Notes under the pieces: generated by a model
Database searches by the model: none
What the model was told of the DNA's origin: nothing
The model's input: the letters and a program-made list of their open reading frames with translations, nothing else
Part shown: positions 839 through 59,154 of the stretch, piece by piece
How positions within the stretch are numbered: the stretch's first letter is position 1
How the letters are laid out: the number at the start of each line of letters is the position of its first letter
Source of the DNA: Sipunculus nudus
Lineage: Eukaryota; Annelida; Sipuncula; Golfingiida; Sipunculidae
Direction of reading: 5' to 3'
DNA: 64,000 nt
NCBI GenBank assembly: GCA_026874595.1
Contig: CM049317.1
Span: 11,972,382-12,036,381 of the forward strand
Position numbers and translations under genes: made by a program

Positions 839-1039
839 TAATTTATTTTTCTTTTACCAGGTGGCAGCAATTCGCTTCCGTAGCAAACAATGCAGAATTT
901 TAACAAACTATATATCCTATGACAAAAAAAAGAAAGATTTTGTCACCACCTAAAGTTTCTATTCTTTACCAAAGTTAATACCTACAAATTGTGCATTACT
1001 AGATATTGTTCATAAATATATTAACTGGTATACCTTTAC

Positions 1040-2991: not shown

Positions 2992-4522
2992 ACCAAAATG
3001 AGCGCTGTTGACCAGGAATGCATAAAAAATACCCCCAAGGTAAATACGGTCAATTTATTTTTCTTGACATGAATGTCACACCAATAAAAACCTATCTAAT
3101 CCTCTGTAATTTATTACCTATAAATTCATATTTATTTGCCGAATCTAAAGAGATTTAACATCATATCCCCTATAAAACTCCAAACTGGCCCTTTTGAAAG
3201 AAAATTACAGTCAATGTAGCATTCAGAATTATAAAAGTGCGTACTGCAAGTCCCTTTCCTCCTCTTATATTTATTTTAACTGGTGCTCGGAATATATCAG
3301 TTCACAGTTTCAAAGTTTTCAGAGATAATTATGTTCGTTACAAAGGGTACATGATTCAAAGTTTCTGGCGTTTGGAATATTTTCAGGATAGTTCGAAAAG
3401 AAGTTCCCGTAAACCATCGCCTGAAGGAACAGAACTGAGAGATTGGCGGAATAATGACACTTTTAAAAAGGTATGCACACAATTAGGGATGGCATTTTCA
3501 AGCGTTTAATGAATGGTGTTTCATACTTTTTTAATGCATTTATTTAAACGTATCGTTATATATATTGTATAATAATTAAGGGTTATCTGTTTTTGTTTAT
3601 GTATACTCGATATTGACTTAATACCTGGTGGGTGCACACAAAACTCCTTTCAAATGATATATTCATATGCAAGGAAAATTTATTTTAAACGCTCCTTGCA
3701 CAACGGATTCATTCATAATCACTAGTATCTGTTCACTGATTAAAGTACTCTTCCGTTGTCCTGAGTTTTACATCTAAACGGAAATGTTAGAATATCAGCT
3801 ACCTTTATCATACTTCATCCAAAGAAATAACTTGTTAGCATTAGGTTCATACATCATGGCATTTATTTACACTTTTTTAAATTAAAGGATCCCCACACAC
3901 AGGAGAGTGACCATGGAACAATAGACGACGTTCCACAGGTATTTTTTAATTTATTTGTTCTTTTTAATTCTAAGGATGTTTTAACATTGGATTACTTTAA
4001 AAAATGCCAATGCGTTGAAAAGCTCAATTTATTCAAATTTATTATTATTACGACTCGCAATATGTTGAGTCTAATATCAATAAAGTTAGTGTTTCTACAG
4101 AATTTGCCACAGTAAATGCAACAGGCCTGTTTCACGTACCATCACGAGCAACTGTTTTCTTTTAATTTGATGAGTCAGGCTTACTGTGTAGGGTGATGAA
4201 CTTGAATTATGTTCAATACCTAAATGCCTTATTCCTGATTACGAAGATATAGAGCGATGTGTATCGTGAGGCTATTATTGTAAGAATTTTTACTATATAG
4301 ATAACCGAGTGAATATATTATAGGGTTTAATTTCATTGAGTATTAAGAGTATTTACAAGATAGATTCGTTTTATAAAATGTAAGGCGTCGTCAAATCTAG
4401 GAATCCTTAACTGGTGACAAAACATAGGAAATGAGATAACAAAACATCATTCTTCACAGAGATTAATCTCCAAGCGAGCTTTAAGGAAGCCGTCTGAGAC
4501 AGGAAAGAAAGAGAGAGATTAA
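2992..4522 (+). CDS. A/B-module gene, 3' part (four phase-0 exons)
   Basis: Four small plus-strand exons, all in phase 0. 2992-3039 is B-like (MSAVDQECIKNTPK; it contains an ATG at 2998 that could be a start). 3387-3470 is A-like (KRSSRKPSPEG, then RDWRNND). 3888-3938 is B-like (DPHTQESDHGTIDDVPQ). 4460-4522 is A-like (LISKRALRKPSETGKKERD) and ends in an in-frame TAA. The alternation A-B-A-B and the SKR..RKPS core are the same as in the large array at 17.9-25.4 kb. An AATAAA at 4652-4657, 130 bases after the stop, fits a real 3' end. The coding sense of the last exon would continue beyond the TAA as RSSRE, so the stop may be a decayed Trp codon rather than a designed terminus. No transmembrane or lectin exon was found upstream on this strand. 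Function unknown. Confidence 0.5.
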
Positions 4523-11000: not shown

Positions 11001-13223
11001 TTAGATTATAATTTTATGTTTTTTTTATTAAAAATATATGGGTTTTCTTCAATTCCTGATTTTTGCTAATGCTAACTCCCAACAGTCAATGAAATGGCAG
11101 AATGCAGCTTAGGATAGCTAACACCAAAACTAACAGTAATCAGGTTGGAAATAGGTGTCTAAAGAGTCGGGGGGGGGGGCTCAATATTTTTGCCCACGGT
11201 CTTACAAATGAATAGTTACTTGTCTATTCAAAATTTAGGATAGAGTTTAAAGTGTTTAGACGGCGGCATCGTAAGCCCCTTCTTGGGCATTTGACATAAA
11301 GTATAATGATAAAATAAAATGATACATTGATACATTTTCGGGATTCCACCAGAATCTATATACGCTCAGTTCAGCAGTATTTGTATTGATTTTAAATATA
11401 AGATGAAACCTAAACTTCCTCATTCATTTCTAATTCATTCATAAACTTATGGTTTGTGTCAGAGTCGATATATCCCCTGCGAATTCCGCGTATTTTGCAA
11501 TAATTAGTGCTTGTATGCATGGCCCATAGGGTTGCTGATTAGTTTGCTTCTAGGGGTGTGATAACTAATCTTCTGTTTGTGCAGAAGCATCATCCCATTT
11601 AGTTCATCTTAGTCGATGGGACATCTTATTCCGGAGGGATTTACATTCGCGATCATTTAACATTCGCGAATATCGCGAAAATAAAACCATCGCGAATAAT
11701 AAGGCAACCACATAATTCAAGTTTCCTTAAATATTTTTTACCAGAACCGGTACTCATACATATCTTGCACGTTCTATTTTGTGTTTTGTCCTCAATACCG
11801 CATGGAAAACAGGTCAAATTAAATAATGATAGATGGCGACATCAGTATTTATTATAAGCAAGCAACATTAACATAATTCATGCCTAAATAGAAAAAAAAA
11901 GGATAGGTTGTGTTCAATGTCATCTGCAACAGTTAAGGAACTTTAAAATAAAGAAAAATCTCAAATATTATAAGAGTATATTAATTGATCTCTGGTCTTA
12001 TGCGTGGTACGTATACTAGGAGTTCATTTTCCACTATTGAAACTAATATTTCCTCTCTGAGGCTTCGCTGATGTATATCACATTAATTTATATTTGTATC
12101 AAACGGTCATGAATTGTCAGTCTCTGACGTTCAAACCTTCCTGGTCTTCCTTTCATGATCTGTGGACTATGAACAGAATAACGACCGGGCAATTTGCAAT
12201 CATCTTGACAAAACACTTTCTCGAAAACACAAATAGAGATATAAGAAAACCCATATTTGATAATAATGATAATGATAATAGAGAGTCTTAAGAAATGTTT
12301 GAATAATAAGGCTAAGGCAGAATTGAACTCTTCTTTCATGAAAAGAGGGCTGTAATATTGTACAAAATATACTATGCATCAGCTCTACACATTATGCTCC
12401 GCAAAATATGATTGTTTTCTGAAACTTGGGTTCCTTTGCTTTCTGCGATTGTTTAATCAGCTGTGTCTAACTAGGGGCAATTCCTGTATTGATAGAAAAA
12501 GGCGGCGCACCTTTTATTCTGGTAACTTCTGAAATCTCTTACAGGACACACTGGTGAACCTAATAAGTCTGGTTTCGTTTATTCCTTGTGGCGATAGGCC
12601 TGATGAAAAACAAGCTTTCCTTCATAGATATAAAAGTATTGAACAGTAGTTGTTAGTCAAATATTTAATGTCAAGTTACACTGTTCTAGGTTGTCTCAAA
12701 ATGAAAATCACGTAAAGCTTGCCATGTAAAAAATCAAATGATAGGAAATGACGGTAACAATACAATCCAAATGATTATAAACGACAGAAATTGTCAGAAT
12801 TGTTGCCATTTAATGGAATACATCCAAATACGATTTTAATTTACTGATAGGACAAAGTTATCTACAACTCCGAATGCCTAATTATCATCTTTTATAAACC
12901 GACATGCATATAATCAGCCATGTAAGAGCAACCGGCATACATGATACGAAGAGTCATTTAAGGTCCATATCAATGCCCATGGGCGATATGACGTCTACAT
13001 TTCTTTAATACAGTGTTCCTATATGAGCAGGGTGCTCAGTGTTTTCAATGCTACAACGCCAACGAATTGAAATCGACAATCTTCGAAACTTACTTTGGGA
13101 CAATAGAGTGAATGTTCGTTTATTTTGTGTAGCCGTTTAATAAAAACATTATGAACCATAAAGTAATGCTAAAAAGGGCGCTTCATACCATATGGAAAAA
13201 ATGTTGGAGAATTTCTCAGACAG
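11001..13223. other. Non-coding stretch with poly-G and CGCGAA motifs
   Basis: Contains a G-run near 11168-11178 and a cluster of cgcgaa motifs at about 11646-11700 (attcgcgaatatcgcgaaaa and a third copy). Several sub-100-codon frames occur, including overlapping opposite frames near 12090-12340, but none has recognisable domains or convincing splice context. Confidence 0.4.
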
Positions 13224-13283
13224 GATTCTCCGCTGAATGAGCAGGGAGTGACTGGTTTAGGACATCATCGAGATAAACCACAG
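13224..13283 (+). CDS. B-type module exon
   Basis: A 60-bp phase-0 exon after cagacag and before gtatttt, reading DSPLNEQGVTGLGHHRDKPQ. The ending ..KPQ and the gtattttc donor resemble the B exon at 3888-3938 (..DVPQ, gtatttt). This is the first member of the main array in this window. Confidence 0.45.
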
Positions 13284-13633: not shown

Positions 13634-13740
13634 TTAACTCCAGTTCTGAGTTAGGTAAACCGTCTTCTTTCTAATCAAAGGAAACACAATGGCTTTCACG
13701 AGACAATTTAATAATTCTGGATGGCAGAACTAAAGTCAAA
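13634..13740 (+). pseudogene. Broken A-type module exon
   Basis: Readable as GKPSS, stop, SKETQWLSRD followed by DGRTKV, aligning to the A module's RKPSP..SKERNW+SQD. It has an in-frame TAA and lacks a clear acceptor, so it is probably a dead copy. Confidence 0.5.
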
Positions 13741-16800: not shown

Positions 16801-17380
16801 CCTAATGTAATCTTCTTTATCATTACTGTCTGCATCAATTATTTTAATCTGTAGATCTTTTAACTTGTTTTGTAAATCTCTTCCCCTTTTACCTGCAAGT
16901 TGTTTATTTTTCCTTACTAAAATTGTCTTATTTTGTATTTCATTGCTTCCCATTTAATCCTCTGATCCGACACATTTTCATATTCTTCTAACCACTTAGA
17001 TTTGGCTGATACTATCTCCTCCATTATCTTATGTTTATCTAATAACCCTACATTTAGTTTCCAGATCCCCGCACCCTTATGGTTGTTCTCCATTACTTCT
17101 AAACTAATTTGTAATTTAATACCAGAGCGGTCTGACTTTACATATGGCAATATATTTGTTTCTTTTACAAAATCCTGCAACTGTTCTGAAATAAGCCAAT
17201 AATCAAGCCTTGAAGCTTTCTTTTCACTTTTGATTCTCCAAGTGAATTCCCTTTTGAGAAGATTTTTAATTCGCCAAATATCATACAGATTAAGGTCATT
17301 GATAATTTTTTTCACCACATTCCTAACCTTGTCTTTGGAACAAAGTTGTCCCCCTTCTCTGTCCAGAATTTTACATAAAG
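13857..17380 (-). mobile_element. 5'-truncated L1/Tx1-like LINE
   Basis: A 3524-bp insertion read on the minus strand. Perfect 14-bp target-site duplications flank it, and the poly-A tail appears as poly-T at 13857 onward, so both ends are defined. The 5' end falls inside the endonuclease domain. Flanking sequence carries A/B exon remnants, so the element landed in an intron or intergenic part of the module array. The clade is assigned from endonuclease and reverse transcriptase motifs and the C-terminal zinc-knuckle style, by recognition only. Confidence 0.92.
13857..17380 (-). pseudogene. LINE ORF2 remnant: endonuclease, RT, zinc knuckle
   Basis: Reading from 17380 downward: a partial endonuclease C-terminus (RLDYWLISEQLQDF, SDRSGI, GIWKLNVGLL); a linker (WFEKGEKSSKYFLNLEK); the RT fingers (NGKSPGNDGLPTEFYKKLWP at about 16440-16365); the palm motif MIISVDMEKAFDSLEWEF at about 16040-15985; RGVRQGDPVSPYIF at about 15855-15815; YADD at about 15720; LKINREKSEGLWLG at about 15620; and a CCHC-like C-terminus (CTFC....CETLLHLFWEC at about 14425-14360). 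The frame is broken by several stops and shifts, for example near 16205, 15755, 15470 and 14380, so the element cannot be autonomous. It is moderately decayed, although its target duplications are still perfect. Confidence 0.9.
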
Positions 17381-17394
17381 TATTTAACAGAGTT
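17381..17394 (+). repeat. Target-site duplication, right copy
   Basis: tatttaacagagtt, identical to 13843-13856, at the truncated 5' end of the LINE. Confidence 0.9.
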
Positions 17395-17931
17395 GAAAAT
17401 GTAGATGCGAATCTGCATTCGATGAGGAAACGATGACTCTTCAAGAAGGGGAAAATTATAGTGTAAAAAGGCTTACTACGAGCATGTCTGAGGAAACTAA
17501 TGAAGAAATCCTAGTTGGCTTTCGATTTTGAAATGTTCAGCGATAATCCATTGCCCAATGGACAACAAAACTGATAGAATAATCTCTATTTACTGATCGT
17601 CACTACACATTTTAAACCGTCGTACAGTGAAAAAAGTCGACGAGAAAGGTAGAATTGTCCAATAAATAGAGGATTTTTTTTATAAATTGTTTGCTAGATC
17701 GACTGGGTGGTAAAATTATACAATAGGACAGGTCACACACGCTTTAATCTGTTCAATTAGGAATATGTTTGGTAAAGAAATACAGAAGAAAACTTGACGA
17801 CTTACCTAATTGAATGTGTCTCCCCTGCAGAAAAGACCACTTTATTTCTAGTATATGGGTGGCCAGAGAAGTCTTAAATAGAGGGTTATATTCATTTTGT
17901 TATATACATATTTATTCTTCAATTTATTGAG
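17395..17931. other. Non-coding spacer after LINE
   Basis: Sequence between the LINE target duplication and the first intact A exon. I see no exon with good splice sites here. Confidence 0.4.
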
Positions 17932-18030
17932 GTTATCTCTAAACGGGAGTCTCGTAAACCGTCTGCAGTGAGTTTACAGGAAAAACTATGTCGTTCACAA
18001 GACGAAACGGATATCTCTGAAGCACAAAAT
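17932..18030 (+). CDS. A-type module exon (intact)
   Basis: 99 bp, phase 0, donor gtaagt. Starts VISKRESRKPSAVS and continues CRSQDETDISEAQN. It has a Cys where most copies have Trp or Leu. The acceptor is attgag, preceded by a T-rich tract. Confidence 0.6.
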
Positions 18031-18310
18031 GTAAGTGACGTCAGAATTGTCATGATTACATCTTTTTGGCGAAAAAATGTAATATATTTATTGATATTAT
18101 GAACGCCTCCACAAATCGTTAAAAGTGTAAGTGAACTTACTGGTAGTGTAATAGATAAATAAAAAATGATACTTTTCACACAGCAATACAGGATACAAAG
18201 ACTGCTCCGTGCAGAAGTGGATGATGTCACTGGAAAAAGAACACCGGTAATATGCATATATACTAAGCTGATGTGTACCACGATATGTTATTGATGTAAT
18301 TACATAAATA

Positions 18311-18358
<48 letters not shown>

Positions 18359-21300
18359 TCACGGGGCAGCTGCCTTGCGTGGATTTCTAGACGAGCATCG
18401 TCCCAGCTGTCGCGTTCGCTAAAGGATATGCCGGTTTCTGCGTGTGGATCCTGTTGCTCATCGGGGACCTCATATCCTCTTGCTTTCCAACTGGGCACGT
18501 TGGTGACCGGAACGTCTCTCTGCTCGGCTTTGTTTCATCTGCGTCTTCAACTTCAAATAATTACATTACTCCTATGGAGTACTCATAAAACGGGTACCAC
18601 ACCCATCCGATTGAAGCGCCAGGAGGCTTAAGACATCTGCAGTTAGTCATTTGGCAGGGGTGATGGAGGTGTGGGATAAGTCGGATCGCGGGCTATTTCA
18701 TTTTGCTGAATGCGAATCTGGTGAATTCTATGATGACATTCTAGATGAATTTCAATTTGGGCGTATCTTAAACAGGACCCAATTGTTTAGGTAGCTTGAT
18801 AACAGAGAAGGTTAAGATTATAAGGGGTTTAATTGTTATTTACAGTTAAAATTTAAAGATGAATTGCGAATGTTTAATGTTAAGTGACAGTTCTATCAAT
18901 TCTATGTAGGTTATCTCTAAACGGGAGTCTCGTAAACCGTCTCCGGGTAGCTCAAGGGAAAGGCAGCATCGTCCAAGAGACAAAACAAAAGACTCTGACC
19001 AACAAAAGGCAAGTGAAGTCATATTAACAAAGAATCAGTCAATGATTCAATTTACACATATTGTTTTCAATTTTGTAATATTAATGTGAATGATGCTGCT
19101 TTATATTATAGGATAAGATTGTAATGTAAAAACATTTCATATAGGCATCTGCGGTCATTGGGGAAAGTGCGACTGGTCCAGGCGGAGCACACATCACAGG
19201 AAGGACCCCGGTATTTGCCCCTTTAAAAATTTTTTCTCCAAAAATGTAAAAAGGTTGCAATGTTTCAATGCAACTTGAATATTGTTTACTATTTTCAAAA
19301 ATGAATAAAAGCTGAATAATTAAAAAGTCTACATGCAAACATTTGGTCGAGGGACATTCTTGGATATATACAGGTTATTTCAAAACGGGTGGCACGAAAA
19401 CCCTCTCCTGTGTGTTGAGAGGAAAGGAATTGGCGGTCGCAAGATGAATCTGATGACTCTGAAAAACAAAAGGTAAATTAGTCACTAATTTGTTTGAGCG
19501 GAAGTCTATGTAGGTGCATTTTTATGCTCTATTAAGTTTATGTTTGCTGTATAACATGATTGTCTTCAGGTTCATTTTGGATGTCTGAACTGGAGATGAG
19601 TTGCGTAGGTTTGGGTTTAGTGCATTCCATAAACCGGAATGGTGCATGCTACGTATAAAGATCATTCACCAGCTCTCCTGGAACTTTTGGGTATATGAAA
19701 CATAAACTTGTCACTAGACCGAAGACACGGTTGTCGTCTATAGGTTAACAACAGCTTTTTAAGGTGAACAACCCTCAAAGGAGACAAGAATATTTTTTAT
19801 ATCAATCTCTGACTGACTAGTAGCCAGTGCAATGCCTTCAGAACTGGACAAATGTGATCCATGTTGCGCGTACTTGTAATAACACATGCAGCACAGTTCT
19901 GAGCAACCTGAAGGGATAAAGAATTTGAATTGTACATATTATATACAAAAGCCGATTGTTGTAGTCCAGTGTGGACAGGTGAGTTGGTGGCTGTTCAAGA
20001 TGCGTCCTTGGTGAGACCTGTGGTTTAATCCGGTTTAATCATCTCCGATCTTGACAACAGGGTTGCAAGCATTGTCCAGACTGGGTGTAACTGAACGATG
20101 GATATGGGTGATGGGACCAAGCAGAGGATAGGGGGATAGACAGACTCCTGTGGGACACCTATGTGGAGAGGGAGTGTTGGGGACCTGGAACCCGCGGCTT
20201 CAATGACCTATTGTCTACCAGCCAATAAGTGGCACATCTTGCACACTAAACGTATGTTCCAGTCGGTCCAGGATAATTTATTTACTCACCGTATCAAATG
20301 CCGCGGAGAGGCCAAACATAAGGAATATGCTCTCTACACTATCCATGGCCATGTCGATATCAATCTTCATATTTAAGAGTACCGTCTCAGAGTTATGTCC
20401 ACAAGAATAAGCAGACTGAAGGGGTCATGCAGATCATTGTTTTTGATGTGTTCTACAAGCTAGTCCGCAATAATTCCCTCAATCAGTTTGTCTAAGAAAT
20501 TGAAGTTTGACACAGGCCATAGTTCTTGAGGATGTTTTGATTAAAACGTGGTTTCTTGAAGAGCGGTGTAACAAAAGCTGACTTGAGGCTGCGATGTAAT
20601 ATTATAAAAGTCTGTGTATTCTGTAAAACTGAGTTATCAAAGAAGCTTGATCCAAGAGAAGGCCGGGATAAGGTTTCATCGTTATACATTTGTAACACTT
20701 AAAGACGAAATATTATGTTGAGTAACATTCCTATATGAAGTTAGGCTAGCTCTAAATGGGAGTCTTGTAAACAGTCAAAATGTGAGCTCACGCGAAATAC
20801 ACTGTAGATCACAAGAAAAAAATGACTCTGAACAACAAAACGCAAGTAAAGTTATATTTACATTAAATAAGTGAAACCTTCAAACAAATTGGTTTAGATA
20901 AAGTATAATTTAAGTCAGTGAGGCTGCCTGATATAATAGGATAACATTATAATGTAGAAACTTTCATACAGGAAGCTGCAGTCAACAGGCACAGTATGAT
21001 TAGTTGAGAACAGGAAGTTCAAAGTACAAGGACTCCGGTGTTTTCCATATTTTCTCGACGTATTTTTATCTTTATTTCATGTGTAAAATGATCTTAATTT
21101 GCCACATGATAACAGTATGCTACCGTCAACAGCTCTGTCTACTTTTACCTAATTCCGTTTGAAATAGTCACACAGTTACAAATTTTACAATCGGAAACAT
21201 TTCGATCACATATCGTGTATTTTTTTTCACAAAACATGAGTAATTAATCTAGAATTATGTTAAAATATCGTAACTTGGAAGGGTATGATAGCATATTTTA

Positions 21301-24300
21301 TCAGTTATAAACTTTTAATGTTTATATGCGAAATTGTTAGCTAGATTCACATTCCTTAACATATACAAGTTATCTCCAAACGGGAGAGTAGTAAACCTTC
21401 TCGTTCGAGTTCAAAGGAATGGCATTGGCGATCACAAGATGAATATAATAACTCTGAAAATCTTTCATACAGGAATCAGCAGTCAGTACACAAAGTGCGA
21501 TTGCTCCAGTTGACGATGCTCAAAGTGCAAGGACTCCGGTATTTTCAATATTTTTGCTCGCCCTTATCAAATATCCTAGTGTTATAAAAAGGTATTAAGT
21601 TGCAAGATAAATATCATACAATATCATGAGTATAAAATTTGTCCACTCATTTATAATTCAGTTTGAAACAGTCACACACGTACACATGTAAAGATTAGAA
21701 ACATTTCGATCAGAAACAAACATATATATTTATGAGGTTTTGTGAGTAAGAAATCTAAAATTAAGTTAAAACTTTGTGCTAAGCGAGGGTTATGAAAACA
21801 TATTTTATTGATAAGAAACTGGTACCTGTTAATGTTTACTTGCGAAATTAATCGGTCGAGTGACATTCCTAAATATACCCAGGTCATCTCCAAACGGCAT
21901 TCGCGTAAACCGTCTCTGGCGAGTCCAAGGGAAAGGAATTGGCGGTCACAAGATGAATGTGATAATTCTGAAAGACTAAAGGTAAGTAAAGTCAATTTGT
22001 CAATGTTTCATTTGTTGAAAAAAAATCTTTATATCTAGTGTTAGGATGATCGTCTCCGCAAATCATTAAAAGCCCGAGTGAGCCCACTAATATTTTAGTA
22101 GATCATATAAAAATTAGGAATATTATCACACAGGAACCAGTCTTCAGTAAACAAAGGCTGTCTGGCCCAAAAAGGGGTGATGACTCTGCAGAAAGAACAA
22201 AGGTATGTTCCATATTAAATTACCATTACTTTTCATGTTTACGTGTACTGCTATTGCGTAATTCCTTGGTTTAAAACTAAAAAAAATCTGTTTCCTGGTA
22301 GAATGGGATGCTAAAAATGTATCAGAAACACAGTAAAGGGAAACATATCGAAGCAGTTTCCAGGAGAATATTTTCTTCTACCGATTGGCAGAAGTTGTAT
22401 CAGTGAACAAGCAATATATAGACCAATGGATGGAATCAGTAATGTACATATAAAATAAGGTGTACTCCAGGCCCTTTTATTTTTGCTGAGTTCATATATG
22501 ATAAAACTAACACAGAAATCCGCTTTGGGTCAAGAGATTTAAGTGTCTGTCAAAAAGTAGACCTATTAAAGCACTCTGGTCACAGAAAGGCACGAGATGA
22601 AGGTGGTTTAACGATTATACACGGGTCAAATTTATTGATAAATTACACGAAAATTATTGTCGAGTGATATTCCTACATGTATATAGGTTTTCTCTGAACG
22701 GGATTCACGCAAACCATTTCCCGCGAGTTCCAGGTAAAGGAATTTGTGGTCACAAATTCAATCTGATAACTTTGAATGACATAAGGTAAGTGAAATCAGA
22801 ATTTTTATCAGTAGAGCTTGCGCAAAAATGGTTAGATTCAGTGATAGGATAAACGTCTCCTAAACATTAAATAATCTTTGTGAGCTCACTGATAGTTAAG
22901 TAGATTATCTAAAAGCGAGGAAAATTCATTCTCACACAGAAATCTGTAGTAAGTGAACAAAGACCGCCTATTCCAGAAGAGAAAAATGACAGTGCAAATG
23001 AAACTAAGGTAAGTGTCATATTGAATTACCCTTACTGGACATATCTGGGGTATATACGCGCATTCTGCTATTGACACAATCACTTAGTGTAAAATTATGA
23101 AAATCTCCGTTTTCAAATAGACAGGCAAGTTTTAAATGTATTTACCGTACAGTAAATGGAAACATGTCGAAGCCGAGAGTATATTCTTTTATCGAAGTGG
23201 CAGAGGTCGTATCAATGAATTGTCAATTTATTGACCAGTGGGTTAAAAGAGTGATGGACTTGTTTAATAAGTTTCACCACAGGTCCTCCTGATTTTAGTT
23301 TTTTTTTTGTTTGCTGTGGGCATATATGCTGAAACTAACGCAGGAGTCAATAGATTTATATGTTTATCACAGAGTAGACCTATTAAAGCACTCTGGTTCA
23401 AGAGAGCAATGGGAAAATGAAGGTTTACTGATTATACCCCGGTAAAATCTAAAGATAAATTACGCTAAATTTAATGTTGAGTGACATTCTCTCATGTATG
23501 CAGGTTATCTCTAAACGGGAATCGCTTAAACCGTCTCCCATGAGTTCAAAGGAAAGGAATTTGGGGTCCCAAAATGAATCTGGTTACCCTGATGGACAAA
23601 AGGTAAGTGAAGTCAGAAATGTTATTATTTAATGCTTAATAGAGTAGACCTATTAAAGCACTCTGGTAATAGAGTAGACCTATTTAAGCACTCTGGTCCT
23701 AGAGAGCAATAGGAAAAGGGAGGTTTACTGGTCATACCCCGGTAAAATCTAAAAAAAAGATAAATTACGCAAAATTTAATGTTGAATGACATTCCTACAT
23801 GTATGCAGGTTATCTCTAAACGGGAACGACGTGAACCGTCTCCCACGAGTTCAAAGGAAATGGATTTGGGGTCGCAAAATGAATCTGGTTACCCTGATGG
23901 ACGAAAGGTAATTCAGAAAAATCATAGTTATATTTGTTGAAAAATTCCTTAATATCTAGTGATAGGGGGACGATAGGATTTAGGTTGAATATTATAAAAA
24001 TCTGTTTCCGGATAGAATTGGAAGCTGAACATGTATCAGATACACAGTAAAGGGAAACATATCGAAGCAGTTTCCAGGAGAAAATTTTCTTTTACCGATT
24101 GGCAGAAGTTGTATCAGTGAACTAGCAATATATAGACCAATGGATGGAATCAGTAATGTACCTATAAAATAAGGTGTACTCCAGGCCCTTTTATTTTTGC
24201 TGAGGTCATATATGATAAAACTAACACAGAAATCCGCTTTGGGTCAAGAGATTTAAGTGTCTGTCAAAAAGTAGACCTATTAAAGGACTCTGGTCACAGA

Positions 24301-27300
24301 GAGGCACGAGATGAAGGTGGTTTAACGATTATACACGGGTCAAATATATTGATAAATTACACAAGTTTATTGTCGAGTGACATTCCTACAAAATAGGTTT
24401 TCTCTAAGCGGGATTCACGCAAACCCTTTCCCGCGAGTTCCAGGAAAAGGAATTTGCGGTCACAAGTTCAATCTTATAACTTTGAAGGACATAAGGTAAG
24501 TGAAATCAGAATTTTTATCAGTAGAGCTTGCGCAAAAATGGTTAGATTCAGTGATAGGATAAACGTCTCCTTAACATTAAACAATCTTTCCGAGCTCACT
24601 GAGTGACTTTCTCTTATGTATGCAGGTTATCTCTAAACGGGAATCGCTTAAACCGTCTCCCACGAGTTCAAAGGAAAGGAATTTGGGGTCGCAAAATGAA
24701 TCTGGTTACCCTGATGGACAAAAGGTAAGTGAAGTCAGAAATGTCATTATTTGATGTATAATAGAGTAGACCTATCATAAGTATATTTGTTGAAAAATTC
24801 CTTTAGATCTTGTGAGAGGATGAACGTCTCCGTAAACATTTGAAGCCTTAGCTCATGGTTATTGGCATTTATTTTTATTGATTAGAAACTGACATTTAAA
24901 TACAAACTTGTAAGGTCGAGTGACATTAATAAATATATACAGGATATCTCGAAACGGGAGTCATGTAAAATGTCTTAAGGAATTAAGTTTCCTCCCGAGA
25001 ATAGACCTATTAGAGTACTCTGGTCCAACAAAAAACTGACATAAAGGGGGTTTCACGGGTATCTCCTGCAAAATTAGAAAAAAGAAAATAAAACAAATTT
25101 TATGATATTCCTAATTAATGTAGGGATAAACTGTCTCGAAGCACTGGCGGTCGCAAGACGACGCAAATAACTTTAAATGACAATCGGCAGGTATCTTCAT
25201 ATTGAAGTCCAGTCAGCCAATAATTATATTCACACAACATATGTTAAATTATGGAATAAAATATAAATAAAAGAAGAGTGTCATGGCAACTATAATGTGA
25301 ATAATTGTCATTCAGAAATCTGCGGTCAGTGTGGCTGGTCCAGAAGAGAAAGCTCACAATACAAGAAGAGCACCGGTATTTTCATTTTTTCTCAAAGCGT
25401 ATAGGAACATATCGTGTTATATCATGAAAATCTCTGTCTACTAATAATATAGAACTCAATTTTATACCGTCTTACATTATACAAAATTTAGTAAAAGAGG
25501 AAAAATCAGTAGCAAATATATTTTTTTTCATGAAGACCATTAGGTAAATTACCAAAATTAAGTTATCACATCATGAAGGGTGGTGAAATCATATTTTCAT
25601 AAGTAAAATAAAAATAATGAAAAGTCATATTTGGAAAATCTTCTATTGGATAGGATCATCAGGATACCCTCTTATATACTATAATTGAATCAAATAAAAT
25701 GTTTGGTCAAAATCCATTCGTATACAATATGTAGAATATTTTTCATAACAAAATACATCTGATTTTATCAGTAATAAGGCTTTCATATGGTGAATTATGA
25801 ACTGGTAAAATTGATTCATCGCTTCTTCAATAAAAGATTATTAAATATGGCCAGTTTTCCCTATTTTGCTTAATTGAAGAAGAAGTTTGCAACGGATCAA
25901 TCCTCTTATCATTACGGCATTTCCATATTCAATTTTGTTTTAGAAAATAAGAAATTGCCAGTGCTGTCTCATACTCGATATGGAAGACCAAAATTGTTTG
26001 ATCGCATCCATACCCGTATGCACCAGATTTCAGTATTGTTCTGTTTGATTAAAACTAGGAACCTCATAACCATGTGTCGTTTATAAATTCGTGGAAAAGT
26101 TTTATTTCCTCTAGTTTCATAATCACCTTTATGATTTATATAATCTAATCTCCTCGTTATGTATTCAAAGATACACGTGAAGAGAGGGCCAATGTTTGTC
26201 AACTTTCTGGATACCGGTACCAAATATTTCAAAAGGTAATTTATCATTGGAAACATTGATAAACAAAAGTAAAAACTATCAAATGAACTGGCATATTTTC
26301 CATATTACAAAACTAAATGGTGAATGTGCTCTTCTAGGGGTATATATAATTTTATAAGTCTACGATCCTATTTATTCATAAATACAGTTACAACCTTTTT
26401 TTTATATTCTCAAGGAAGAGTTTATAATACAATACGATGTTATCCTCCAGCTCAATAATGAATCTTATTTATTTTCAAACGGATACAGGTAAATATAACA
26501 AGGGTCGTCTGCCTGTGTCGTCCATACTTTCAATTCGTGGAGCAAGAATTATGCCAAACATTGGATATGTCTGTGAGTAAACACAGCAGTGTAACTAAAT
26601 ACTGTATTTATTTCTGGTTACAAAACCGTGTTCCTGTTTTCCGACCATATCATTAACATACACATTGTAAAGTAAAACCAACCGGCTGAACTCGTAGATA
26701 ATTACACTCCATAAAGACGAATCAGGCATGGGTAAAAAAACAAACTCAGTATTATAAAAAAGATACTTACCTTCTCTGGAGAGGCGCTTATTTTGTACAA
26801 ACATTGAAGATAAACTCAGAAATAAGCACAGAGTGAGTTAACTACATTACACAAGTCCCTTGTTTACACTGTTTCTGATCACATGAACATCGCGCACACG
26901 TGTCACATGGATGTAGCACTATTTGCATCAGTTGGTGACTCACGCTGTGCAAACAATACAATCATTAAACCGTTTATATAAAGTTATCGGTCTGTTCCTT
27001 GAAGCGCTCACAAGTATGAATCGCCATATGTATCAGTCCGTCGGCAAAAATGGGATACTTTTTCTGAAGTCCTTTACAGAGAAATGTCAGTGGCCTTCCC
27101 CAGACCCCGACTTTTCCACAAGCACCGACTATTTACGGTTATAGACATCATCTCTAAGCTGTTTCGATTCTTATACGCGCAGACCTGCCCCTGGACTGCA
27201 GATATCGTCAGGCTATACCGCTGATCGGGAACTTCTCTCGAATATTGTCCTTCTCACGTCTTATTTATGCTTGATGGCGTCACAAGTCCTGATAGTCCTC

Positions 27301-29056
27301 TAGCCAGTCATCACTCCCAATTATGCCGACCGTCAATAACAGCATGAATGTTAATGTGGATATGCTTTCAAAGATAAAAATCCTGTGAAAACTAAAAACA
27401 GGTGAACTTCCATTGAACTCTACAACAGACACTCGTTGTTATAGAGAACGCCAATCAGAGACTGTTCCGGCGGAATTAAACTGTACTGAAATTAACAACG
27501 TGTATCTGAACATGATACTTTATTTTGATATAAAAAAATTATAAAAACGATCGTTTGGTTATGTTGCATACTTGCACAGCAATACAGCATAAGTCACAGT
27601 CCTCTGGTGAAACACATGCTTCACAGGTGCGTGTATAGAATCGCATACATGTGCTTCCCAGCTAGTTCCGGAATGTGTAAAGAAAAGATACACATATATA
27701 GATGATGTAACAGATCCCTTATACATAATCATACTGACAAAAGCCTTAAGCATATTTAAAGAATAGAAACGACACACACACACACACACATGTATATATA
27801 TAAAAGTGTGTGTGATTGTATGTAGATAAAGAGAAAGGGTGATGCGTTTTTGATCGATTAATTTATTTATTATTAAACAAACTTCCAAAGTGCACAGGCT
27901 TCTTCTTCAGATAGAACGGGTGGAGTTGTTTTTTAAAGAGTGGAGTAATAATCCTTAATGTTCATAATGTCAGTAGCTGTACACCTATATTCTGACTGGA
28001 TATTACGTAACATCATATATATTAACCATGATGCTAGGAGGGTGGTACACAGCAGTATCTATTGCTCAACAGTACCCAACGCTATGGTCTAAAAATTCCA
28101 CGAATGTACATGTATACGGACGTCGTCCATATTATCAGGTCACCTGAAAGGTCGCAATCACCACTTGACGAATAAGCCTGTGTGCTTCGAAAGCTTGTGT
28201 AATAATAAATCATTTTATTGGCTAAGACGACTATACCATATATTTATAATAATGGTCGGGTTAATGCTCTGACAACCCGTTTTAATAGAAATTCCATTTC
28301 TTAGAAACTGAAAGAAGAAGTAATCCTTTTAAGTCACGAAACAGGTTTCCGCTATGATCTACACCTGAAATACCTCAAGCACATCACTTACATATCACCA
28401 AGGTTCGAGGTCAGTAAATAACCTTACAAAAATACGCAATGTTTATCATCTTTTTTAACGGTTCCCCAGGTAATATTATTCCTTGACATTTATTTTGTTC
28501 TTTTACATTCATTTATTTATAATGATTTATAATTAGTTGTCATTATTTATTTATTTTGCAGGTTAACCTGGGAAGTGACGACCTATTATTCTTCCAGAAC
28601 CCCCAAAGAGAGAAGCTGCAACCGATGGAATGCGGAATTGCATGGCAGGTTGTATATTTTTTATATATTTAAAGGAAAATGAAATTGAAGTTTAACAAAC
28701 TCCAGCAGTCATAAATAAAGGGAAACAAATAATAATGCCGCTGTTCTTAATTTTGTAGAAAAGGAAAAATGCCAAGAGGATAGAAAGCTACTGCTGTTTT
28801 ATTTGTGAATGCGATATATTACGAAACACAGAGGTGGGTGATATATATACACATTTATATGAATCAATCAATTGTTGTAATGAAATCGACTCACATTTGA
28901 ACTTATTTTTTATTTTGTCATTTTGAAATATAAAGAGATTTCGTTTAACCTAAAATAATGTGTTTGCAGTCAATTTCAAATCATCTTTCAATTTGTTTTT
29001 ATTTTATAACTGTAACCCACCTAAAATATGTAAAGCCTATCGCCAATATCATATAG
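17932..29056 (+). CDS. Tandem A/B module exon array (composite gene region)
   Basis: A plus-strand run of at least thirteen A-type exons (mostly exactly 99 bp) and seven B-type exons (60-69 bp) between 17932 and 25375, followed by three further phase-0 exons at 28305-28833 and a possible terminal exon ending at 29056. Every well-formed exon starts and ends in phase 0. The A consensus begins VISKRESRKPSP, continues SSKERNWRSQDES and ends with a short acidic/Gln stretch and QK before gtaagt. B exons read like ESAVSTQSA..ARTP before gtatttt. All modules are hydrophilic and Ser/Arg/Lys-rich, with no cysteines in most copies, no membrane segment and no known fold, so an intrinsically disordered tail or linker is the simplest reading. 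Whether all exons belong to one transcript is inference. About half of the A copies are broken, so this is partly a graveyard. No start exon was found. Confidence 0.55.
18184..18246 (+). CDS. B-type module exon
   Basis: 63 bp, acceptor cacacag, donor gtaata. Reads QYRIQRLLRAEVDDVTGKRT then P, phase 0. More basic than other B copies. Confidence 0.5.
18315..18356. repeat. (TA)n microsatellite
   Basis: Uninterrupted TA dinucleotide run, directly followed by a GC-richer stretch to about 18640. That stretch has an open minus-strand frame (VPDEQQDPHAETG, then WDDARLEIHARQLPRDL), possibly a fragment of a mobile element that I cannot name. Confidence 0.85.
18910..19008 (+). CDS. A-type module exon (intact, GC donor)
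   Basis: 99 bp, phase 0, starts VISKRESRKPSPGSSRERQ and ends DSDQQK. The 5' splice site is GCAAGT rather than GTAAGT, a minor but functional donor class in eukaryotes. The same GC change appears at the broken copy ending at 20841. Confidence 0.55.
19145..19210 (+). CDS. B-type module exon (intact)
   Basis: 66 bp, acceptor ttcatatag, donor gtattt. Reads ASAVIGESATGPGGAHITGR then TP, phase 0. Confidence 0.55.
19374..19472 (+). pseudogene. A-type module exon with in-frame TGA
   Basis: 99 bp with a good acceptor (tatacag) and donor (gtaaat). It begins VISKRVARKPSPVC, then a TGA stop, then EERNWRSQDESDDSEKQK. Length and frame are otherwise preserved, so the loss looks recent. Including this exon would terminate translation. 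Confidence 0.65.
19640..20700 (-). mobile_element. CR1-like LINE remnant (RT and C-terminus)
   Basis: Minus strand, from 20700 downward: SAFVTPLFKKPRFNQNILKN at about 20580-20521 (RT N-terminal motif), then FLDKLIEGIIADQLVEHI at about 20500-20447, FGLSAAFDTV at about 20317-20288, and the C-terminal VQNCAAR-like block read here as QNCAACVITSTRNMDHICPV with LKALHWLLVSQR at about 19907-19811. The motif order is that of CR1/Jockey-group LINEs. Many stops and frame shifts make this a dead copy. It lies in the array between the A exon copies at 19374 and 20745. Confidence 0.75.
20745..20841 (+). pseudogene. Frameshifted A-type module exon
   Basis: Recognisable as SSKWESCK, then after a frame shift SSREIHCRSQEKNDSEQQ. 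It is 97 bp instead of 99, has a degenerate acceptor (ttag) and a GC donor (gcaagt). A dead copy. Confidence 0.6.
20972..21037 (+). pseudogene. B-type module exon with in-frame TGA
   Basis: 66 bp, acceptor catacag, donor gtgttt. Reads EAAVNRHSMIS, stop, EQEVQSTRTP. Frame and length are conserved except for the stop. Confidence 0.55.
21370..21538 (+). pseudogene. A and B modules fused without intron
   Basis: The A part (from about 21370) reads ISKRESSKPSRSSSKEWHWR, then SQDEYNNSE, and runs directly into ctttcatacag and the B exon at 21473-21538 (ESAVSTQSAIAPVDDAQSAR, TP). In neighbouring copies an intron of about 110-140 bp separates A from B. Here the A donor and most of that intron are deleted, and the A acceptor has lost a base. 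The B exon still has an intact acceptor and donor and could be used alone. Confidence 0.6.
21883..21981 (+). CDS. A-type module exon (intact)
   Basis: 99 bp, acceptor acccag, donor gtaagt. Starts VISKRHSRKPSLASPRERNW, then RSQDECDNSERLK. Confidence 0.6.
22134..22202 (+). CDS. B-type module exon (intact)
   Basis: 69 bp, acceptor cacacag, donor gtatgt. Reads EPVFSKQRLSGPKRGDDSAE then RTK, phase 0. Confidence 0.55.
22290..22891 (+). repeat. Array duplication unit, copy 1
   Basis: A roughly 600-bp block containing the A exon at 22687-22785. It is nearly identical to 23990-24600, for example in the run agtaaagggaaacatatcga and the run tatagaccaatggatggaat. Confidence 0.85.
22687..22785 (+). pseudogene. 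A-type module exon with in-frame TAA
   Basis: 99 bp, begins VFSERDSRKPFPASSR, then TAA, then RNLWSQIQSDNFE and a second stop. Its duplicate at 24397-24495 is open throughout, so the stops arose after, or were repaired before, that duplication. Confidence 0.6.
22940..23008 (+). CDS. B-type module exon (intact)
   Basis: 69 bp, acceptor cacacag, donor gtaagt. Reads KSVVSEQRPPIPEEKNDSAN then ETK, phase 0. Confidence 0.6.
23504..23602 (+). CDS. A-type module exon (intact)
   Basis: 99 bp, acceptor tatgcag, donor gtaagt. Starts VISKRESLKPSPMSSKERN, then LGSQNESGYPDGQK. It differs from the copy at 24626 at only a few bases. Confidence 0.65.
23640..23695. repeat. 28-bp tandem doublet
   Basis: agagtagacctattaaagca plus ctctggta occurs twice in tandem. 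Single copies of the same intronic motif recur near 22560, 23385, 24272 and 25005, marking duplication units of the array. Confidence 0.8.
23809..23907 (+). CDS. A-type module exon (intact)
   Basis: 99 bp, acceptor tatgcag, donor gtaatt. Starts VISKRERREPSPTSSKEMD, then LGSQNESGYPDGRK. Confidence 0.6.
23990..24600 (+). repeat. Array duplication unit, copy 2
   Basis: Near-identical to 22290-22891. At 24600 the sequence switches to a copy of the 23480-23640 block, which marks a recombination junction within the array. Confidence 0.85.
24397..24495 (+). CDS. A-type module exon (intact)
   Basis: 99 bp, acceptor aaatag, donor gtaagt. Starts VFSKRDSRKPFPASSRKRN, then LRSQVQSYNFEGHK. This is the open counterpart of the broken exon at 22687-22785. 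Confidence 0.6.
24626..24724 (+). CDS. A-type module exon (intact)
   Basis: 99 bp, acceptor tatgcag, donor gtaagt. Starts VISKRESLKPSPTSSKERN, then LGSQNESGYPDGQK. Confidence 0.65.
24943..24978 (+). pseudogene. Truncated A-type module exon
   Basis: After tatacag it reads DISKRESCKMS and then hits TAA. The rest of the module is missing. It could act as a terminal exon but is more likely a relic. Confidence 0.5.
25122..25191 (+). pseudogene. Degenerate A-type module remnant
   Basis: A tggcggtcgcaagacgacgc core (WRSQDDA), flanked by a rearranged 5' half, is all that remains. No open frame in module register. Confidence 0.45.
25316..25375 (+). CDS. B-type module exon (intact)
   Basis: 60 bp, acceptor cattcag, donor gtattt. 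Reads KSAVSVAGPEEKAHNTRRAP, phase 0. The last B copy of the array. Confidence 0.55.
25688..27480. repeat. Segmental duplication, copy 1 (about 1.8 kb)
   Basis: Direct repeat of 31660-33615 with high identity over most of its length, for example agaaattgccagtgctgtct and tggatgtagcactatttgca (tggatgtatcactttttgaa in copy 2). On the minus strand it carries a lectin-like fragment (25975-26126), a good acceptor before acatatccaatg (about 26574), and a possible first exon at 26804-26771 reading MFVQNKRLSRE before a strong gtaagt donor. That donor is mutated in copy 2. Confidence 0.85.
25975..26126 (-). pseudogene. Lectin-like N-half exon fragment (duplication copy 1)
   Basis: Minus-strand frame with FPRIYKRHMVMRFLVLIKQN, then TEIWCIRVWMRSNNFGLPYR before gtatga. 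CIRVW is shared with the lectin exon at 1040-1294, and the spacing matches the helix-2-to-strand region of the receptor at 37.3-44.8 kb. The W..A...C block is not visible, the upstream acceptor is weak and the exon phase differs from the other lectin exons. It is probably a relic. Confidence 0.4.
27540..27835. other. Non-coding spacer with short (CA)n
   Basis: Between duplication copy 1 and the Penelope-like unit. Contains acacacacacacacaca near 27774-27790 followed by TA repeats. Confidence 0.4.
27836..28250. mobile_element. Penelope-like solo inverted terminal unit
   Basis: Two Penelope-like 3' ends face outward in inverted orientation. The left arm contains gcacaggcttcttcttcag and the right arm contains cttgacgaataagcctgtgt plus gcttcgaaagcttgtgt. 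Both match the termini of the 53.1-61.1 kb element, including the internal ttaaccatgatg..aggagggtgg..acag block. There is no coding sequence between them. Confidence 0.7.
28305..28409 (+). CDS. Unassigned phase-0 exon (KLKEEV...)
   Basis: 105 bp, acceptor ccatttcttag, donor gtcagt. Reads KLKEEVILLSHETGFRYDLH, then LKYLKHITYISPRFE. Phase 0 at both ends, as in the upstream A/B array, so it could be the continuation of that transcript. No known domain recognised. Confidence 0.5.
28562..28648 (+). CDS. Unassigned phase-0 exon (VNLGSDD...)
   Basis: 87 bp, acceptor with a strong T-rich tract (ttattttgcag), donor gttgta. Reads VNLGSDDLLFFQNPQREKLQ, then PMECGIAWQ. Confidence 0.5.
28759..28833 (+). 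CDS. Unassigned phase-0 exon (Cys cluster)
   Basis: 75 bp, acceptor ttttgtag, donor gtgggt. Reads KRKNAKRIESYCCFICECD, then ILRNTE. A basic start followed by a CC.IC.C cluster could be a lipidation or metal site; this is inference only. Confidence 0.5.
28970..29056 (+). CDS. Possible terminal exon
   Basis: After tgtttgcag, phase 0, reading SISNHLSICFYFITVTHLKY, then VKPIANII and TAG. It continues the phase of the three exons before it. Composition is AT-rich and no close polyadenylation signal was seen, so support is weak. Confidence 0.28.
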   Translation, partial: SISNHLSICFYFITVTHLKYVKPIANII

Positions 29057-31486: not shown

Positions 31487-31659
31487 GTGACTGCAGTTCT
31501 GATACATCTATTAAAAGTATTTTTCCTTGTATCTAATAGCGCCGATTACAGGTGTCTCGCTTCGCTGTAAAAGCTCCGTTGTTGATATGCTAATTAGGAG
31601 CATATTCGTAGTATTATTTAATTGGTTCTTCAGAAGCAAACCCTGATATATAATATAAG

Positions 31660-33615
31660 TTTAATCAAACCATTTTAGGTCAATATCCATTCGTATACCA
31701 TACGTAAAACAGTTTGCATAACAAAATAAGATATTTCAGATTTTATCAGTAATATATTTTACAGGAAAGGCCTTCTAGATGGTAAATTATGAACTGGTAA
31801 AATGGATTCATCGCCTGTTCGATAAAAGATCAATAAATATTATCAGTTTTACCTATTTTGTTTGATTGAAGAAGAAGTATGCAACGGTGTGATCAATCCT
31901 CTTATCATTGCGGCATTTCCACATTGAATTTTGTTTAAGAAAATAAGAAATTGCCAGTGCTGTCTCATACTCGATATGGAAGACCAAAATTCTTTGATCG
32001 CATCCATACTCGTATGCACCAGATTTCAGTATTGTTCTGTTTGATTAAAACTAGGAACCTCATAATTATGTGTCGTTTATAAATTCGTGGAAAAGTTTTA
32101 TTTCCTCCAGTTTCATTGTCACCTTTATTATTTATCTAATCTCCTCGTTATGTATTCAAGGATACACGTGAAGAATGGGTCAATGTCTGTCAACATTCTG
32201 GATACCGGTACTCAATATTTCAAAAGGTAATTTATCATTGGTAACATTGATAAACAAAAGTGAAAACTATCAAATGAATTGGCATATTTTCATTATTTTA
32301 AAACTAAATAGCAAATGTTCTCTTGTAGTGGTATACATCATTTTATAAGTGTACGATCCTATTTATTCATCAATAAAATTACAACATTGTTTATTTTTTT
32401 AAGAAAATAGTTCACAATACGATGTTATCTTCGAGCTCAATAATGATTCTTATTTATTTTCAAACGGATACAGGTAAATATTACAAGGGTCGTCTGCCTG
32501 TGTCGTCCATACTTTCAATACGTGGAACAAGACTTCTGCCAAACATTGGATATGTCTGTAAGCACAGTAGTGTAACACCAAAATATCATCAAAATACACA
32601 TTGTCAGATCGGAAAGGATGTACGTCAAGATTTTTTTTTAAAGTAAAACCAACCGGCTGAACTCGTAAATACTTACACTCCATAAAGACGAATTATACAT
32701 TGGTAAAAAACAAACTCAATATAATTAAAAAAAAGAAGTTACTTATATTCTCTGGAGAGGCGTTCCATTTGTTCAAACATTGAAGATAAACTCATAAATA
32801 AGCACAGTGTGAGTTAACTACATTACACAGGTGCCTTGTTTACACTGTTCCTGATCACATGGACATCGCGCACACGTGTCACATGGATGTATCACTTTTT
32901 GAATCAATAGGAGGCTCGCGCAGTGCAAATAGTACAATCAGTTATCCTATAGAGACACGGAGCTCCTATTAACAACAGTTCTCTGTAGATTACCAGGGTG
33001 AAGATGTTTGCCTTTCGTGACAGAGTTAACGCAACACACAGAGCCTAATCTTTCTGGGCGCAGAATCAATGTCTTCGGCAGGTGTTGTCTCAGGAATTAT
33101 CCAGTTGTAGGTAGCAGAATACGCTGTCACACAGCGATACCAAGTACCTATACAGTTAAGCGTTTAAATGAAGTCCTCGGTCTGTTTCGGGAAGCGGCCA
33201 CAAGTCCTTTATAGAGAAATCTCAGTGGCCTTCGTGAGACACCAAAGACCCCGACTATTTACGGTCGGTTATAGATATCATCTCCAAGCTGTCTCGATTC
33301 TGATACGCGCAAAACCTGCCCCTGTACGGCGGCAGATATCGTCAGGCTATACCGCTGATCGGTAACCTCTGTCGAACATCGTCCACCTCACGACGTATTT
33401 ATGCTTGCTTTCGTCACATGTCCTGATAGTCCTCTAGCCAGTCATCACTCCCAATTATGCCGACCGTCAATTACAGCATGAATGTTAATGTGGATACGCT
33501 TCTAAAGACAAAAACCAAGGAAAATTAAAAACAGGTGAACTTCCATTGAATTCTACAACAGACACTCGTTATTATAGAGGACGCCAAACAGAGACTGCTC
33601 CATTGAAATTAAATG
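31660..33615. repeat. Segmental duplication, copy 2 (about 1.95 kb)
   Basis: Direct repeat of 25688-27480. It has about 200 extra bases (about 32940-33140) relative to copy 1. The gtaagt donor seen in copy 1 at 26770 is ataagt here, and a 4-bp deletion disrupts the frame upstream of the lectin-like fragment. Confidence 0.85.
31971..32122 (-). pseudogene. Lectin-like N-half exon fragment (duplication copy 2)
   Basis: Open over the fragment: GGNKTFPRIYKRHIIMRFLV, then NTEIWCIRVWMRSKNFGLP. A few substitutions relative to copy 1 (MV to II, N to K). Immediately upstream the frame hits stops because of a 4-bp deletion relative to copy 1. Confidence 0.4.
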
Positions 33616-37284: not shown

Positions 37285-37535
37285 ATGGTCAAAATGAAAC
37301 ACTTTTCAACAATTTCAGTATATGTATTTCTACTTTTACTTCTGTACATCGACATGGCTAAAATTGTGGTTCCTCTCTACGAGTTTGAGTACGGTAAGGC
37401 ACACTATTTTTTAAAGATAAACTAGAGGAAGTGGTTATCAGGAAATAAACACATCAGTCATATCACATCTTCATCCTGCAATTACATATTAGTCTCCATG
37501 TAACTATAGACAAACGGTGAAAATCTTGAGTGTGT

Positions 37536-59150: not shown

Positions 59151-59154
59151 TTAA

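Follow-up and report, generated by a model that had tools for sequence, protein, structure and literature searches.

The gain or loss of gene length by whole in-frame exons has its best-known examples among structural proteins. Tropoelastin, the PEVK region of titin and the fibrillar collagens have grown by tandem duplication of in-frame exons, and in tropoelastin the module types alternate. Treacle and Nopp140 are chains of basic and acidic phosphorylatable blocks, with the two charges apparently combined in every repeat. The micro-exon genes (MEGs) of schistosomes contain many short symmetric exons, mainly of 36 bp or less, whose removal keeps the frame; the sections of the source considered here describe them as schistosome-restricted and attribute a signal peptide to all MEG proteins (PMC8293314). 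We analyzed a stretch of 64,000 nucleotides of the Sipunculus nudus genome (the window; positions 11972382-12036381 of contig CM049317.1, here C12, in a 1.43-Gb assembly of 153 contigs), which contains a tandem array of two types of exons, A and B. This array is real, and it is the partly worn middle member of three related arrays, which we named block 1 (upstream), block 2 (the window array) and block 3 (downstream). We put at roughly 0.55 the probability that, as the sequence suggests, the array forms the repeated-exon portion of a protein-coding gene, of a type that our searches located only in a small receptor cluster, and that the window copy of this gene is decaying.

By layout, the locus can be likened to tropoelastin, titin PEVK and the collagens, with which it shares repeated symmetric exons and a length set by exon number, but its modules are charged, partly Ser-Pro bearing, and belong to an intracellular-looking gene beside receptors. 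Compared by description with Treacle and Nopp140, the difference here is that the basic modules and the B modules, mostly acidic in block 1, occupy exons of their own. The likeness to MEGs lies in the symmetry of the exons (the open A and B exons of the window, and those of the block-1 gene model, which were picked for phase 0) and in their restriction to one cluster here, set beside the schistosome restriction given in the sections considered. The exons measure 51-129 bp in the block-1 model and 60-99 bp in the window, unlike the mostly ≤36 bp reported there for MEGs. Moreover, the signal peptide that the same sections give for all MEG proteins was found neither in the block-1 model nor in the 2.1 kb of block 1 scanned for a first exon of that kind, where the 5' end is modelled. 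The lectin/ZU5 receptors of the cluster seem to have multiplied by duplication along with the arrays, but they are separate genes, the nearest of which lies on the opposite strand.

The window array comprises 13 A-like and 7 B-like copies in tandem on the + strand, between positions 17932 and 25375 (Table 1). The original prediction of at least thirteen 99-bp A exons is too high: of the 13 A-like copies, only nine are full length with both splice sites, and seven of these nine are open. The other copies are two full-length ones with stops (19374 and 22687) and four that are otherwise broken (20745, 21369, 24943 and 25140). All seven predicted B exons of 60-69 bp are present, and six are open, the exception being 20972, which has a stop. 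Nine of the 13 A copies and all seven B copies retain both splice sites. Full-length A units are preceded by AG and followed by GT or GC, so that the predicted AG/GT borders apply to most copies, except that 18910 has a GC donor, that 20745, 21369 and 24943 have no donor, and that 21369 has no acceptor at the expected place. Every open A or B copy starts and ends between codons (phase 0-0), as had been proposed for the tandem units, and symmetric exons of this kind could be skipped, duplicated or, in principle, combined without a shift of frame.

The alternation of A and B runs to 22940, with a single B missing between 19374 and 20745. Beyond 22940 there is an A-only run that is the product of recent local duplication: segment 22282-22892 is 94.3% identical to 23996-24602, and 23478-23653 is 95.5% identical to 24600-24775. 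A profile of the A units scores its ten training copies at E 3.7e-30 or better and copy 20745, outside the training set, at E 6e-15, and a B profile scores the seven B copies, all of them training members, at E 5e-21 or better; as the profiles were built from the array units themselves, these E-values mainly describe likeness. Array members also occur outside the array proper, at 3387, 4460 and 13224 (B-type) and as relics near 12685 and 13648, so that the series reaches back to 3387. A further match of the B profile, at 17409-17471 (E 9e-4), was rejected because it overlaps a retroelement frame (16917-17510).

A search of the whole genome with the 33-residue A consensus gave 18 matches at E up to 10, all on C12: twelve in the window and six in block 1, the latter about 80-87 kb before the start of the window. 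The block-1 array, about 100 kb upstream of the window array, contains nine full A exons, all open, and among them six open B exons and one B relic. Block 3, about 60 kb downstream, was found by scanning the flanks for phase 0-0 exons. With its own profile, nhmmer gave 27 hits, 25 of them at 12055765-12068620 and two further on; by script, 13 copies are intact, having an open frame as well as both splice sites, and a one-base shift of three starts raises this number to 16. Eleven successive spacings in block 3 are 363-368 bp, giving a 366-bp period, and all 22 genome matches of a block-3 peptide fall within the block. In these searches, which were not exhaustive, every A-type match fell in one of these three places on C12. 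Blocks 1, 2 and 3 have in common a core near S-x-R-x-x-R-x-P-S-P-x5-R-x-W, and their exons agree in length, phase, strand and position. The features by which we delimit a local A-module family (a 99-bp phase-0 exon, the core, and the strand opposite a lectin/ZU5 receptor) were found, some copies being without every core residue.

A tree of 28 exons unites the block-3 copies in one clade (support 1.0) and the block-1 copies in another (0.65), and leaves the window copies unresolved as one. These block-wise clades make it seem that the arrays grew, or were homogenized, largely after separating. Furthermore, neither copy number nor structure is the same in the three arrays, so there has been repeated copying and loss of units. 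Searches of Pfam with two pieces covering 32 of the 34 modelled block-1 exons gave no family at E up to 1, the C-terminal piece of the block-1 model, the sole piece searched, had no PDB sequence match, and Rfam (gathering threshold, window) and tRNA searches gave nothing for the A/B gene. Among the matches listed for open-licence papers, we found no description of such arrays beside lectin/ZU5 receptors. The A/B gene is placed in no published family; the predicted lack of a recognized family therefore stands as far as Pfam is concerned, but the array is part of a local family of three and not a single array.

Among ten window A copies, identity was 0.74 and 0.69 over the two exon halves and 0.50 at 61-120 bp upstream (shuffled, 0.46). 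Because identity drops outside the exon and its splice borders, the repeat has the shape of an exon and is no simple satellite. Identity between window and block-1 A exons was 0.57, 0.66 and 0.40 at the three codon positions, and pN between the two blocks was 0.37 versus a pS of 0.74, which is near saturation. Within block 1, dN/dS of the A exons was 0.40 (interval 0.26-0.57), and all nine copies are open versus 2.16 expected under neutrality, a number reached in none of 3000 neutral simulations rooted on the majority sequence, itself open. A dN/dS near 1 had been named in advance as contradicting a coding array; both block 1 and the comparison between blocks stay well clear of that value. Protein-coding constraint has acted on the A exons of both block 1 and block 2, and purifying selection on those of block 1 is clear. 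With splice models trained, as a cross-trained control, on the other exons of block 1, candidate exons of phase 0-0 made up 14 of 38 in its A/B part (opposite strand, 2/20), 16 of 40 in the block-3 array (4/68) and 9 of 41 in the window array (2/7), and the background over 170 kb was 28/315 on the + strand and 55/395 on the - strand.

Judged from its sequence, block 1 would be a working gene, or would have been one until lately. Our model of it has 34 phase-0 coding exons after the ATG (11884403-11908930; 1006 aa); its exons were first picked by eye, and those past A/B were chosen for phase 0 from open frames and splice sites. The modelled protein has no signal peptide and no transmembrane stretch. 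Charged residues make up 41% of its N-terminal 462 residues, a part that the charge-hydropathy line places on the disordered side. The A/B part is followed by a second alternating exon pair (C three times, D twice) and by single exons. Copies D1 and D2 differ by 11 nonsynonymous and 0 synonymous changes, which may be chance (about 0.07, simple binomial). The C/D copies (C12:11897179-11899598) diverge about as fast as, or faster than, nearby introns, and their differences are mainly amino-acid-changing. Among the matches listed, block-1 downstream exons had only short, weak matches in the 25-41 kb region of the window, and window exons 28562 and 28759, sought elsewhere in the genome, each matched only itself.

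The exact sequence SKRESRKPSP, given originally as the A core, occurs in one of the nine full-length window A copies (18910). Across 12 sequences of the A module, S3, R5 and P10 are invariant and K4 and K9 almost invariant. In block 1, 7 of 9 copies have the core Ser-Pro, and in block 3, 12 of 15 do, with Arg at -3 (R-x-x-S-P) in 6/9 and 12/15, respectively. The corresponding count for Ser-Pro in the window is 5/9 full-length and 4/7 open copies. The claim of a basic Ser-Pro site in every A copy is thus wrong; most copies in blocks 1 and 3 keep the site, which is a family feature that the window copy is losing. R-x-x-S-P is a preference of DYRK-type kinases. The N-terminal part of the block-1 protein contains six R-x-x-[ST]-P sites (shuffled mean, 0.46), all of them R-K-P-S-P. 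The block-1 A modules have net charges of +1 to +7, and five of the six B modules -1 or -2, the sixth being +1.

A number of results weigh against the reading of the array as part of a protein-coding gene type of this cluster. The dN/dS of the window A exons is 0.63, with an interval of 0.38-1.02, and seven of nine copies are open versus 3.68 expected (P 0.09), which is near neutral; both values refer to the nine full-length copies, the exclusion of 20745, 21369, 24943 and 25140 favouring openness. The window array therefore lies only marginally below the dN/dS limit mentioned above. Likewise, dN/dS of block 3 is 0.66 with an interval reaching 1 (0.43-1.01; 15 of the 16 intact copies), and in its regular part, where exons are less different than introns in 37 of 45 pairs, 0.85 (0.41-2.36). 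The block-1 B copies lack the codon-position pattern (0.64/0.53/0.56), and constraint was not detected in the C/D copies. With splice models trained on A/B, phase 0-0 candidates past A/B in block 1 number 5/27 versus a background of 5/34, and the same comparison gives 1/3 in the window array and 0/17 in block 3. The ATG-only first exon of block 1 is a model, and the next exon could hold the start. R-x-x-S-P has faded to 3/9 full-length and 2/7 open A copies in the window, where the net charges of the B modules (+2, 0, -1, -2, +2, -1 and +2) are not acidic as a class. Only a 22-residue core is common to block 3 and the other two arrays (hhalign probability 32%, E 5e-4, one comparison), and by sequence alone, the membership of block 3 would be weak. 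With the first A query, three of the nine A copies in block 1 and all of block 3 went undetected, and so further diverged arrays may exist. Finally, in a further part of the cluster, block 0, no array was found between the two receptors (phase 0-0 in 0/9 candidate exons, no A match), and hence receptors exist without an array. In sum, the window array is relaxed and, of the two close relatives, more eroded than block 1; block 3 is young, and constraint is unproven there.

The region C12:11834249-12043394 forms a paired-receptor cluster: it contains four - strand lectin/ZU5 receptors, three of which are followed, in the stretch covered, by a divergent + strand lectin gene. A genome search with the receptor lectin exon gave six matches, four of them strong and within the cluster, all on the - strand (11838, 11878, 11974 and 12043 kb; a span of about 206 kb), and two weak and distant. 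Each strong copy has a ZU5 match beside it, and three of the four have a 99-bp phase-0 A array nearby on the opposite strand. The - strand receptor of block 1 was recognized by Pfam (Lectin_C, E 1.3e-4; ZU5, E 1.9e-7) and has a transmembrane stretch called by eye. Its signal-peptide exon MGFALPALIFILAEKALG, on the - strand, lies 240 bp from a + strand ATG with a consensus donor, the modelled start of the array gene. Downstream of the array, both block 1 (11913252) and the window (37294) contain another receptor, encoded on the + strand and provided with a signal peptide of its own. The predicted lectin-type neighbours are therefore present, with receptor exons on both sides of the window array. 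The ZU5 exon of the upstream receptor lies to the left of the window, and the lone candidate for its signal-peptide exon was judged implausible. For the downstream receptor, Lectin_C matched 41783-42085 at E 0.064, below the cut-off, and Pfam gave nothing for 42514-42801 and 42830-43192. Block 1 and the window each have an A-like + strand exon (C12:11878936-11878985 and 3387-3470, respectively) just past the corresponding lectin exon of the - strand receptor; the former lies in the first intron of the receptor as modelled, with no donor seen. These exons may be an older or alternative 5' end.

Several other elements were seen near the array. Between the relic and the array, at 14.1-17.5 kb, there are broken frames on the - strand that we take to be retroelement-like from their reverse-transcriptase motifs. 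Retroelement-like open frames are also present on the - strand at 53369-53875 and 58261-59169, the first presumably resembling the GIY-YIG endonuclease end of a Penelope-like element, for which Pfam gave no support. Two pairs of same-strand segments are 83-84% identical (25666-26964 with 31640-32940, and 27067-27480 with 33202-33613). This duplicated stretch may be a mobile element or a duplicated gene; a small - strand open frame seems, by eye, common to the copies, and a short piece of the stretch matches block 1 (11904557-11904654). A 21-bp tandem repeat, TACGTACGAGATAATATGTCG, lies at 719-837, and similar repeats recur roughly 4 kb before the window begins, near 11968298-11968586.

Table 1. 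Array exons, outlying and candidate exons, and receptor exons of the window (positions counted from its first nucleotide).
Feature	Position	Strand	Remarks
A exon 1, VISKRESRKPSAVSLQEKLCRSQDETDISEAQN	17932-18030	+	open, AG/GT, phase 0-0; profile E 1.8e-33
B exon, 63 bp	18184-18246	+	open; profile, splice/frame check
A exon	18910-19008	+	open; GC donor (AAG/GCAAGT, exon/intron)
B exon, 66 bp	19145-19210	+	open
A exon	19374-19472	+	full length, one stop
A exon	20745-20843	+	frameshift, donor lost
B exon, 66 bp	20972-21037	+	stop
A exon	21369-21467	+	no donor, no acceptor at expected place; 3' end merged into intron preceding next B
B exon, 66 bp	21473-21538	+	open
A exon	21883-21981	+	open
B exon, 69 bp	22134-22202	+	open
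A exon	22687-22785	+	full length, two stops
B exon, 69 bp	22940-23008	+	open
A exon	23504-23602	+	open
A exon	23809-23907	+	open
A exon	24397-24495	+	open; recent duplicate partner of 22687
A exon	24626-24724	+	open; recent duplicate partner of 23504
A fragment	24943-25041	+	5' half recognizable, stop, no donor
A fragment	25140-25191	+	3' half recognizable
B exon, 60 bp	25316-25375	+	open; final array member
Candidate 5' exon of window gene (MSAVDQECIKNTPK from 2998)	2992-3039	+	putative; donor GTAAAT, phase 0
Outlying A-like exon, DSSKRSSRKPSPEGTELRDWRNNDTFKK	3387-3470	+	open, phase 0-0; profile
Possible B-like exon, DPHTQESDHGTIDDVPQ	3888-3938	+	phase 0-0; by position, no sequence match
Outlying A exon, RLISKRALRKPSETGKKERD then stop	4460-4558	+	stop, no donor; profile and genome search
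Relic A exon	12685-12783	+	stops; profile E 0.0099
B-type exon, DSPLNEQGVTGLGHHRDKPQ	13224-13283	+	open, phase 0-0; profile E 8.4e-8
Relic A exon	13648-13738	+	profile E 1.6e-6
Candidate downstream exon, VNLGSDDLLFFQNPQREKLQPMECGIAWQ	28562-28648	+	phase 0-0; genome search, self-match only
Candidate downstream exon, KRKNAKRIESYCCFICECDILRNTE	28759-28833	+	phase 0-0; genome search, self-match only
C-type-lectin-like exons, upstream receptor	999-2435	-	61-74% identity to block-1 receptor exons; Lectin_C E 0.018, below cut-off
Signal-peptide exon, downstream receptor, MKHFSTISVYVFLLLLLYIDMAKIVVPLYEFEY	37294-37393	+	ends in phase 1; called by eye
Lectin-like exons, downstream receptor	41783-43192	+	40% identity to block-1 + strand receptor

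There is a substantial chance, though less than even, that the window array is a dead, truncated duplicate (a pseudogene) of the block-1 gene and that its open exons are leftovers. Six of its 13 A copies and one of its seven B copies are broken, neither its dN/dS nor its number of open copies departs firmly from neutrality, and the core Ser-Pro has been lost in three of the seven open A copies. In addition, the retroelement-like frames separate the relic from the array, and the block-1 downstream exons have no convincing counterpart in the region beyond it among the matches listed. Against a pseudogene are the six open B exons out of seven and the splice sites kept at most A copies and all B copies, and the stop-bearing exons, being symmetric, could be skipped. 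The idea that the units are chance or a non-coding tandem repeat scarcely deserves credence: the units are in tandem, and part of block 3 has the 366-bp period, but similarity is confined to exons in blocks 1 and 2, the codon-position pattern, dN/dS and the excess of open frames argue for coding sequence, and even in the regular part of block 3 exons mostly differ less than introns. For block 1, the dN/dS of 0.40 and the nine open copies out of nine refute it.

What the product does is a separate matter. We consider it unlikely that the gene encodes a chromatin, nucleolar or RNA-binding charged-block protein behaving like Treacle or Nopp140, its place beside receptors being a hitchhiking accident. 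The highly charged, disordered-side N-terminal part and the opposite charges of most block-1 A and B modules would suit such a protein, but all A-module matches found lie within the receptor cluster, as if co-duplicated with it, and the window B modules do not share the acidity. A secreted protein diversified by splicing and working like the schistosome MEG proteins is improbable. Symmetric exons, restriction to one cluster, disorder-like modules and the purely nonsynonymous differences between the recent D copies point towards it, but the block-1 A exons are conserved, the internal exons (57-129 bp) are longer than those in the MEG account considered here, and the scan of block 1 yielded no signal peptide, which also leaves the secreted disordered protein put forward in the original prediction unsupported. 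Its other suggestion, a diversified receptor tail, would have the array supply a neighbouring lectin receptor with alternative exons for its cytoplasmic tail. The adjacency to receptors in three blocks agrees with this, and basic modules would suit a tail, but we regard it as very improbable: the upstream receptor is on the opposite strand, and the downstream + strand receptor begins with a signal-peptide exon of its own past the array, in block 1 and in the window alike.

According to the reading we prefer, a gene type of the receptor cluster with a decaying copy in the window, the product is probably a modular, Ser-Pro-rich, intracellular protein. The block-1 relative would encode a mostly intracellular protein, whose highly charged and probably disordered N-terminal chain would consist of basic A and mostly mildly acidic B modules. 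A proline-directed kinase or a phospho-binding partner could recognize the six R-K-P-S-P sites, and the length of the array would then set the number of phosphorylation sites in an intracellular partner of the receptors. Thanks to the symmetric exons, unequal crossing-over could alter this length with the frame intact, and exon skipping might do so as well. Since the modelled block-1 start codon lies so close to that of the divergent receptor, shared regulation with this receptor and action in its pathway would be the likeliest role. The window copy would be a relaxed, probably truncated duplicate, possibly becoming a pseudogene. A bolder version, which we offer as speculation and hold to be rather doubtful, is that of a receptor-linked "valency gene", in which divergent lectin/ZU5 cassettes enclose a gene whose germline-unstable array of symmetric exons sets the number of phospho-sites, the three cassettes having reached different module numbers and versions largely independently. 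If this were true, animals would vary not only in their receptors but also in the valency of their signalling. The three relatives lie within 190 kb, one constrained, one eroding and one with a recently copied 366-bp unit. Therefore, this locus would allow the birth, spread and decay of exon repeats to be followed, and its adjacency to receptors would enable a test of tunable multi-site signalling.

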